A DNA stretch of 64,000 nt. Source: an uncultured bacterium (GTDB lineage: Bacteria; Patescibacteriota; Saccharimonadia; Saccharimonadales; Saccharimonadaceae). The position numbers were made by a program, and so were the translations under genes. A model generated the notes under the pieces. That model saw only the letters and a program-made list of their open reading frames with translations. It ran no database searches and was not told the origin of the DNA. Location: assembly GCA_903952435.1 (NCBI GenBank), contig CAJBFN010000001.1:62001-126000 (forward strand), given 5' to 3'. Shown one piece after another: positions 20,641 to 37,416 of the stretch. Numbering within the stretch: the first letter of the stretch is position 1; the number at the start of each line of letters is the position of its first letter.

Positions 20641-20771
20641 GACATTGCCTTGCTTTGCTCGTCTCCTACGCTTGCTCATAAAAATATGTAAACACATTTT
20701 TATTTCACTGCGCTGCGCCAAACTTCGACCTACAAATTTTGCTGGGGCAAAATTTGGGTCGAAGGTTTGAG
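20641..20771 (-). repeat. tRNA-tail element downstream of tRNA-Pro (inverted T-arm copy 20757-20771, second T-arm copy 20719-20730, conserved GCGCAGTG/GTTTAC/GCAAGCG module)
   Basis: 20757-20771 GGTCGAAGGTTTGAG is the exact reverse complement of tRNA T-arm 20847-20861; distal module shared with the elements at 28963-29081 and 37262-37372. Confidence 0.8.
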
Positions 20772-20788
20772 GTATTTAAACCCAAGGT

Positions 20789-27657: not shown

Positions 27658-27769
27658 ATGAATATAATAGCAGAAAAATATTGTTAGTGGGTTGTAGATT
27701 TGCAAGCATCCTCCGCTTGTTTGCGAAAAAAACATTTGGGTTGTTAGGCGGTCCGATCCATCCGGATTA

Positions 27770-27811
27770 CCAAAATAAAATAACCATCTTTCGATGGCTA
27801 TTTTATTTTGG
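27770..27811 (-). terminator. Hairpin terminator including the tRNA-Arg CCA end
   Basis: CCAAAATAAAATAGCCATC-gaaa-GATGGTTATTTTATTTTGG. Confidence 0.8.
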
Positions 27812-28941: not shown

Positions 28942-28962
28942 AATTGGTGCGGGCGAAGAGAA
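28938..28962 (-). repeat. Duplicate of the tRNA-Gly 3' end (direct repeat of 29121-29145, 1 mismatch in 25)
   Basis: ttttaattggtgcgggcgaagagaa vs ttttaattggtgcgggcggagagaa, 183 bp apart. Confidence 0.85.
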
Positions 28963-29081
28963 GGCGGTCATTATGCTTCCTACTTCCGCTTGCTTATAAA
29001 ATAAGTAAACTGATTTTGTTGCACTGCGCTTCACGAACTCTCATCTGGTTCGCTTTGCTCGCTGATGAGAGTTCAAATCTC
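28963..29081 (-). repeat. tRNA-tail element downstream of tRNA-Gly (inverted T-arm copy 29064-29081, second T-arm copy 29035-29045, conserved module)
   Basis: GATGAGAGTTCAAATCTC mirrors T-arm GATGAGAGTTCGATTCTC; shares GCGCAGTG...GTTTAC...AAGCAAGCG with the tRNA-Pro element. Confidence 0.8.
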
Positions 29082-29089
29082 AACACATG

Positions 29090-29130
29090 CCAATTAAAAA
29101 ATCGTACTCAAGGTACGATATTTTAATTGG
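29090..29130 (-). terminator. Hairpin terminator including the tRNA-Gly CCA end
   Basis: CCAATTAAAATATCGTACC-ttga-GTACGATTTTTTAATTGG. Confidence 0.8.
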
Positions 29131-29202
29131 TGCGGGCGGAGAGAATCGAACTCTCATCGTTTGCTTGGAAGGCAGACATATTAGCCTTTATACGACGCCC
29201 GC
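29128..29202 (-). tRNA. tRNA-Gly(TCC), CCA encoded
   Basis: GCGGGCGTCGTATAAAGGCTAATATGTCTGCCTTCCAAGCAAACGATGAGAGTTCGATTCTCTCCGCCCGCACCA. Confidence 0.93.
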
Positions 29203-29283: not shown

Positions 29284-29361
29284 GGCGAATGTAGCTCATC
29301 TGGTTAGAGCGTCGGGTTGTGGTTCCGAAGGTAGTGGGTTCGATCCCCATCATTCGCCCCA
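29284..29361 (+). tRNA. tRNA-His(GTG) with G-1, CCA encoded
   Basis: G-GCGAATGTAGCTCATCTGGTTAGAGCGTCGGGTTGTGGTTCCGAAGGTAGTGGGTTCGATCCCCATCATTCGCCCCA. Confidence 0.93.
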
Positions 29362-29565
29362 AAATATTAAAATCAGGCTTAATGCCTGGTTTTATTATTT
29401 TGAAGCAATTGATTTGGGGATCGACCCACGAAGTAGTGGGTGAGAACTGCCAGTGGCAGTTCGCAAGGCCGGAAGCTAGATGGCGACTTGTCGCCACCAA
29501 CTGAGGCGGGGTCGCGAAAAATTCAGGATGAATTTTATCGTGACCGATCCCCATCATTCGCCCCA
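29341..29565 (+). repeat. 21-bp direct repeats of the tRNA-His 3' end flanking a 183-bp structured insert (inverted T-arm copy at 29415-29429)
   Basis: CGATCCCCATCATTCGCCCCA at 29341-29361 and 29545-29565; TGGGGATCGACCCAC mirrors the T-arm. Confidence 0.9.
29359..29402 (+). terminator. Hairpin terminator including the tRNA-His CCA end
   Basis: CCAAAATATTAAAATCAGGC-ttaa-TGCCTGGTTTTATTATTTTG. Confidence 0.75.
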
Positions 29566-37261: not shown

Positions 37262-37372
37262 GGATTTGAACCGCCGATTGGGTTTTGTTTACAAAATCCA
37301 AGGTCGACGGTTCGGCGTAGCGATTGAAGCGAAAAAGTGTTTACATTTTTTCGTGAATGAGCGAAGAAGGCT
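37262..37372 (+). repeat. tRNA-tail element downstream of tRNA-Arg(TCG) (inverted T-arm copy 37262-37277, direct copy 37302-37314, conserved module)
   Basis: GGATTTGAACCGCCGA mirrors TCGGCGGTTCGAATCC; GGTCGACGGTTCG repeats GGTCGGCGGTTCG; followed by AAAAAGTGTTTACATTTTTTCG and GAGCGAAGAAGG. Confidence 0.8.
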
Positions 37373-37416
37373 TTAGCCGCTATCCGTTCGGAATAAAACC
37401 TGATAACATAACTAGT

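Follow-up and report, generated by a model that had tools for sequence, protein, structure and literature searches.

A family of structured RNA elements at the tRNA genes of Saccharimonadia

Integrative elements that target tRNA genes retain an intact tRNA and duplicate its 3' end past the insert. Archaeal tRNA introns and group III or twintron introns measure about 90-110 nt, occupy several tRNA positions and can be nested, one intron within another. The bridge RNA of IS110 elements is a structured RNA beside a segment that can pair with the target on either side of its central dinucleotide, and integron attC sites are folded recombination sites at which insertion takes place after a G. Here, a stretch of 64,000 nt (contig CAJBFN010000001.1, positions 62,001 to 126,000; in the following, the window) from an uncultured member of the Saccharimonadaceae was analysed, in which the 3' end of a tRNA-His gene is likewise repeated beyond a structured insert. 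Saccharibacteria are tiny symbiotic bacteria whose genomes do not exceed about 1 Mb. The insert holds one copy of a family of three-hairpin RNA cores that is absent from Rfam and from the open literature searched. The features of the family suggest mobile RNA elements of a new kind, which home to tRNA genes.

Anatomy of the tRNA-His insert

The element is hosted by the intact tRNA-His(GTG) gene at 29285-29361 on the forward strand (ARAGORN, Rfam RF00005). The final 21 nt of this gene (positions 56-76 of the tRNA) read CGATCCCCATCATTCGCCCCA and are found at 29341-29361 and again 3' of the insert at 29545-29565, with 183 nt in between. A preliminary description of the window had reported this perfect repeat and the structured insert, and both were recovered exactly. 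A chance origin of the repeat is ruled out by the expectation of about 1e-5 repeats of this kind within 300 bp for the window. The segment 29404-29570 folds with -73.5 kcal/mol (z = -6.3), and none of 200 shuffled sequences was equally low.

All parts of the element lie on the forward strand. The tRNA is followed by a terminator-like hairpin (29363-29401), behind which the next gene directly follows in element-free relatives. An antisense copy of the tRNA-His T-arm, designated A' (29416-29429), can pair with 29433-29441 and with 29545-29552, as judged from sequence and fold. It is succeeded by A''5' (29433-29439), a second sense copy of the variable loop and the 5' strand of the T-stem (approximately tRNA positions 46-52), which is recognized by its sequence and by the 3p layout of most copies. 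The type A core (29440-29544; R1 match of 51.6 bits, E 5e-10) is supported by homologues across genus and class and by covariation. It consists of the hairpins H1 (29444-29462), H2 (approximately 29469-29505) and H3 (approximately 29511-29544). The second copy of the 21-bp repeat, designated A''3' (29545-29565), completes the element. The preliminary description had also listed a terminator hairpin, an inverted copy of the T-arm and three further hairpins, all of which are present. The duplication of the T-arm 5' strand at 29433-29439 had been missed, and it implies that the insert splits a T-arm copy.

In Rfam searches with the tRNA-His insert and a second insert at a neighboring tRNA-Gly, only tRNAs were matched, and the core remained without a match even at E values of up to 5. 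The 183-bp insert does not encode an integrase; its sole open reading frame is an antisense frame running through the tRNA. A description of the family was not found in the open PMC literature, a search that does not extend to subscription papers.

The core RNA family and its linkage to tRNA genes

Part of the window (29438-29551) recurs as dispersed copies, which occur in most genomes of the genus and are located away from tRNA-His. In all, 102 candidate copies were taken from 28 genomes and a few sources outside the genus. With minor variation, the copies follow the common plan GTGAG-H1-GCAAGG-H2-GGGGTC-H3-GTGAC, so that in the RNA fold the three hairpins are set among the fixed joints GUGAG, GCAAGG, GGGGUC and GUGAC. 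Two types were distinguished, type A with about 102 nt and type B with about 88 nt. A covariance model built from type B detects the type A copy of the window (E 5e-10), and both types therefore belong to one family. In type B, 96.7% of the cells are paired and 190 double-change cells compare with 42 in shuffles; the respective numbers for type A are 190 and 45. One pair in H3 is a G.U in 39 of 42 and in 52 of 53 copies. As this pair would be A.C on the opposite strand, the functional RNA strand is that of the tRNA, and this speaks for an element acting as RNA.

A covariance-model search detected the family in 76 of the 294 Saccharimonadia genomes sampled, representing 44 of 128 genera; the copy number per genome reaches at least 15 among the matches listed. 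The class- and phylum-wide searches used strict filters and a limited number of candidates per genome, so that copy numbers are lower bounds. In the phylum-wide sample, the sole match outside the class is a weak one at a contig end. Named records that contain the family are mostly Candidatus Saccharibacteria, and one carrier, a metagenome-assembled genome, is labelled Parcubacteria. The family is thus essentially confined to Saccharimonadia. Phage and plasmid collections gave no match and an exact-pattern scan of viral contigs gave none either, and phage or plasmid cargo was rejected accordingly.

The copies adjoin tRNA genes of many isotypes. A neighboring tRNA matching the flanks of the core was found for 102 of 120 copies, and all 102 cores are located on the strand of that tRNA, 74 of them downstream and 28 upstream. 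This count considered matching tRNAs on the core's own strand only; an earlier unrestricted listing gave the same strand pattern, and the opposite-strand tRNAs listed there are neighbors of a same-strand host. In 86 of the 95 copies with two readable junctions, the core follows a G and replaces exactly 2 nt of the tRNA. The insertion point is mostly 53|56, in the T-loop after G53. The remaining cores are found at the junction of D-arm and anticodon arm (23-25|26-28), in the anticodon loop (37|40) or in the D-loop. Copies are related by descent, and independent insertions are therefore fewer than the copies counted. In a closed genome from another family (G069; the first 800 of 910 kb were searched), about 20 cores are present, 17 of which are at most 265 bp away from a tRNA; 12 of the 32 tRNAs have such a neighbor. 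Several copies elsewhere that are not linked to a tRNA adjoin remnants of a tRNA 3' end, and two of these (in G003 and G007) have been parted from tRNA-Pro by an integrated serine-recombinase element.

At one locus (L030, 1455-1625), a complete tRNA-Val(GAC) is split by a T-loop core with no intact copy nearby; it could be a tRNA pseudogene or a genuine interrupted tRNA. A fixed distance between core and intact site (about 83-118 by eye) is not claimed, since its spread is not clearly below that of the distance to the tRNA end in a comparison that took in tandem and nested copies.

Typically, the downstream form comprises the intact tRNA, a terminator, A', a short loop, A''5', the core and A''3' from position 56, the last sometimes reaching as far as CCA and a second terminator. 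In the upstream form, the 5' part of the tRNA with the core is followed by a palindromic segment and then by the intact tRNA. Among 49 copies, the match of A' to its own tRNA is about 90% for positions 46-52 and 54-58, yet it is seen in only 14 of the 49 for position 53. This is the random level (p ~1e-9 against each neighboring position), so the nucleotide opposite the first G of the core is free while its neighbors are held. The helix of A' and A''5' tolerates G.U pairs. The pairing of A' with A''3' decays beyond position 59 and shows 16 double changes only, and a long stem kept by compensation was rejected on these grounds. The data are consistent with just two maintained pairings, a hairpin that precedes the core and a short closing stem.

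A second family with an unrelated core sequence, family C, occupies the same niche with the same layout. It adjoins Glu, Gly, Arg, Phe, Gln, Leu, Val, Met and Pro tRNAs and is found on the strand of the tRNA in 14 of 14 cases. In the window, a family C element is hosted by tRNA-Gly(TCC) (29128-29202, reverse strand). Its parts, all on the reverse strand, are the antisense T-arm copy A' (29064-29081, inverted repeat I2), the sense copy A''5' (29034-29045), the core (28963-29033, GTGAAGCGCAGTGC..GTTTAC..CAAGCGGAAG.., with relatives adjoining Gly, Arg, Phe, Gln and Leu tRNAs) and the second copy of the tRNA 3' end, A''3' (28945-28962, D2 repeat). The preliminary description had rightly noted this duplication on the opposite strand; the start-to-start repeat spacing is 183 as compared to 204 at tRNA-His, and the insert is structured as well (z = -4.9). 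Antisense and sense T-arm copies also accompany a family C element 3' of tRNA-Pro(TGG) (20650-20773, ends approximate, reverse strand), another at a decayed tRNA-Arg(TCT) (27690-27808, reverse strand) and a family C-like element 3' of tRNA-Arg(TCG) (37263-37390, ends approximate, forward strand). These three had been overlooked; with them, the layout is present at five of the six tRNAs of the window. A search for the antisense arm alone 3' of tRNAs was of low power.

Mobility, host function and candidate movers

At the syntenic tRNA-His locus, the comparison of orthologs that the preliminary description had proposed shows the element in about 10 species of the genus and an empty site in about 14, and the type of core varies between species. 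Complete cores are nested within other cores at GGGG|TC|GCGG (L106, L260 and L263, and in G069 beside Asn and Gln tRNAs) with a loss of about 2 nt and without flank duplication. Tandem units occur as well. Because of the nesting and the species-wise occupation of the tRNA-His site, we infer that the cores move, or once moved, as RNA-structured units rather than as host genes. The core is a conserved structured RNA, and it is neither invariant nor purely vertically inherited. At two hybrid loci (L249 and L254), a family C core lies next to what is left of the right end of a family A/B element, which suggests that one tRNA site was occupied in succession.

The preliminary description had pointed to an insert foreign to the tRNA locus and, by proposing a search for excision at the 21-bp repeat, to a simple attachment-site element. 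The former holds, given the occupied and empty sites across species, the dispersed relatives and the shared architecture at tRNA-Gly. The latter is disfavored: the unit lacks an integrase, the repeat represents the duplicated tRNA portion 3' of the split, and in copies located upstream of tRNAs it is the 5' part that is duplicated. The conserved mobile part is the RNA core of 88-107 nt rather than the whole repeat-bounded unit.

On balance, the family probably represents dispersed, non-autonomous, RNA-structured mobile elements that invade tRNA genes and are moved in trans, with the core in the window as one copy. The core would enter a tRNA sequence after a G in an arm, mostly G53, with loss of two target nucleotides. 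The arrangement observed afterwards is an intact tRNA beside a partial, core-split copy, with a short inverted arm copy between them. The duplication and inversion of tRNA sequence may arise during insertion and be kept because the tRNA is essential, and the insertion itself would be made by some enzyme acting in trans. Nearly all observed insertions are in genes of structured RNAs, namely tRNAs, remnants of tRNAs or other cores. Insertion at the RNA level would fit this pattern but is not proven by it. Mobility at that level appears improbable: the targets of the core RNA would be tRNA transcripts and its own RNA, entered after a G with guidance or help from the antisense tRNA-arm segments, and the chimera would then enter the chromosome as a copy next to the tRNA gene without any reverse transcriptase that the element encodes or that can be identified.

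Several observations weigh against trans-mobilized elements. No excised form and no recent burst were seen, copies within a genome are typically well diverged, and the antisense arms track the local tRNA, which an ordinary transposon would not need and which could indicate a host function. Furthermore, no mover was found when 15 element-bearing and 14 element-free genomes were compared (without phylogenetic correction). Reverse transcriptases, as expected for a retroelement or group II intron (RVT_1; 3/15 versus 4/14 genomes, no correlation), TnpB/Cas12-like nucleases of the OMEGA kind (PF07282; 0/29) and IS110 DEDD transposases (PF01548; 0/29) are ruled out as movers by their occurrence. Tyrosine recombinases are present with one or two genes in every genome, and Y1 transposases (Y1_Tnp) are absent from 6 of the 15 element-bearing genomes, closed ones included.

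The main rival is a leader or trailer RNA serving the host, in which A' pairs with the adjacent tRNA arm or its split copy and regulates tRNA maturation or stability. The tracking of the own tRNA by A' on both sides of position 53, its G.U-tolerant helix with A''5', the invariable adjacency and strand of all 102 matched copies and the layout at most tRNAs of the window would fit such a role. It is nevertheless somewhat unlikely given the patchy occurrence among sister species at one tRNA, the varying core type at that tRNA, the nesting of cores within cores and the lack of the family in about three quarters of the sampled genomes of the class.

Alternatively, the unit might be a miniature integrative element. 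An integrase or large serine recombinase supplied in trans would integrate it at the tRNA 3' end, its attachment site, and could excise it at the direct repeat. The 21-bp identity block, the terminator copy that it sometimes includes and the tandem units agree with this view. Serine recombinases with a 2-bp overlap are common in these genomes. In 10 of 12 inspected cases (L321-L326, L328, L329, L331 and L332), the large serine recombinase gene ends in or overlaps an opposite-strand tRNA, which suggests integrative elements that target tRNAs and in which the tRNA region encodes part of the integrase C-terminus. One such element of about 8 kb in tRNA-Pro of G003 (L324, 1162-9533) encodes a serine recombinase and a neighboring DNA methyltransferase-like gene, and a 3' end fragment of the tRNA is displaced to its far end. 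We consider this alternative unlikely. Serine recombinases above the cut-off are found in 13 of 15 element-bearing versus 9 of 14 element-free genomes (p = 0.2) and are missing from G042 despite 13 copies of the core, and nested copies lack repeats. Large serine recombinases were dismissed as movers since their integration sites in tRNA-Pro fall elsewhere: the two resolved elements displace only the final 7-9 nt of the tRNA, a piece starting at about position 68-70 and not at 56.

Single-strand DNA elements of the IS200/REP (repetitive extragenic palindrome) kind, mobilized by a Y1 transposase of the RAYT (REP-associated tyrosine transposase) type, would explain the hairpin ends and the nested copies without target duplication, and Y1 genes occur in 9 of 15 element-bearing versus 0 of 14 element-free genomes (p = 0.0007). 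We consider this explanation very unlikely. The conserved G.U pair favors RNA over DNA, and the initially strong correlation is weakened by the six rich genomes without Y1, among them G069, G123, G004, G113 and G042, which are closed or near-complete, and by the palindromes that surround several Y1 genes. Such RAYT-like genes in L270, L273 and L279 are bounded by palindromic repeats of their own, e.g. AGAAGGTCCGTCCTTCTAAA.

Significance and comparison with known systems

Many Saccharibacteria carry 5-20 copies of the family at tRNA genes despite genomes of about 1 Mb or smaller. If mobile, the cores would constitute a class of bacterial elements that carry sense and antisense arms specific to the tRNA and have no recognizable enzyme; if functional for the host, they would add a new layer of tRNA-by-tRNA regulation. 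Should the RNA-level reading be true, they would form a new class of programmable tRNA-invading elements. Cultured Saccharibacteria exist, and provided that some of them carry the family, the question can already be put to the test.

The cores resemble REP sequences, bacterial interspersed mosaic elements and the miniature inverted-repeat transposable elements associated with IS200/IS605-like RAYTs in being short, hairpin-rich, dispersed and non-coding, without an enzyme of their own. They differ by a covarying three-hairpin RNA fold with a G.U pair, strict tRNA linkage, the loss of 2 nt and the antisense arm, and the Y1 gene is missing from several core-rich genomes. The retained intact tRNA with its duplicated 3' end is shared with tRNA-targeting integrative elements. 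In contrast to these, the unit is gene-free and only about 200 bp long, some copies reside in the 5' parts of tRNAs, an antisense arm is present and cores are found inserted into cores as well. Archaeal tRNA introns and group III or twintron introns are similar in size, in the use of several tRNA positions and in nesting. However, two tRNA nucleotides are missing at the cores, so that removal could not restore the tRNA, and the host copy is usually partial with an intact tRNA alongside. The arrangement of core and antisense arm is like that of IS110 bridge RNA, whereas the transposase is absent from all 29 genomes and the guide varies from copy to copy, matching the local tRNA only. Folding and insertion after a G are reminiscent of integron attC sites, but the core ends lack paired core-site boxes and the structure is conserved as RNA; integron integrase or cassette genes did not turn up, although no search was aimed at them. 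REP and miniature inverted-repeat elements, tRNA integrative elements, tRNA introns and bridge RNAs thus each share single features with the cores, and for each of them a defining feature is either lacking or, as with the Y1 transposase, present in only part of the carriers.
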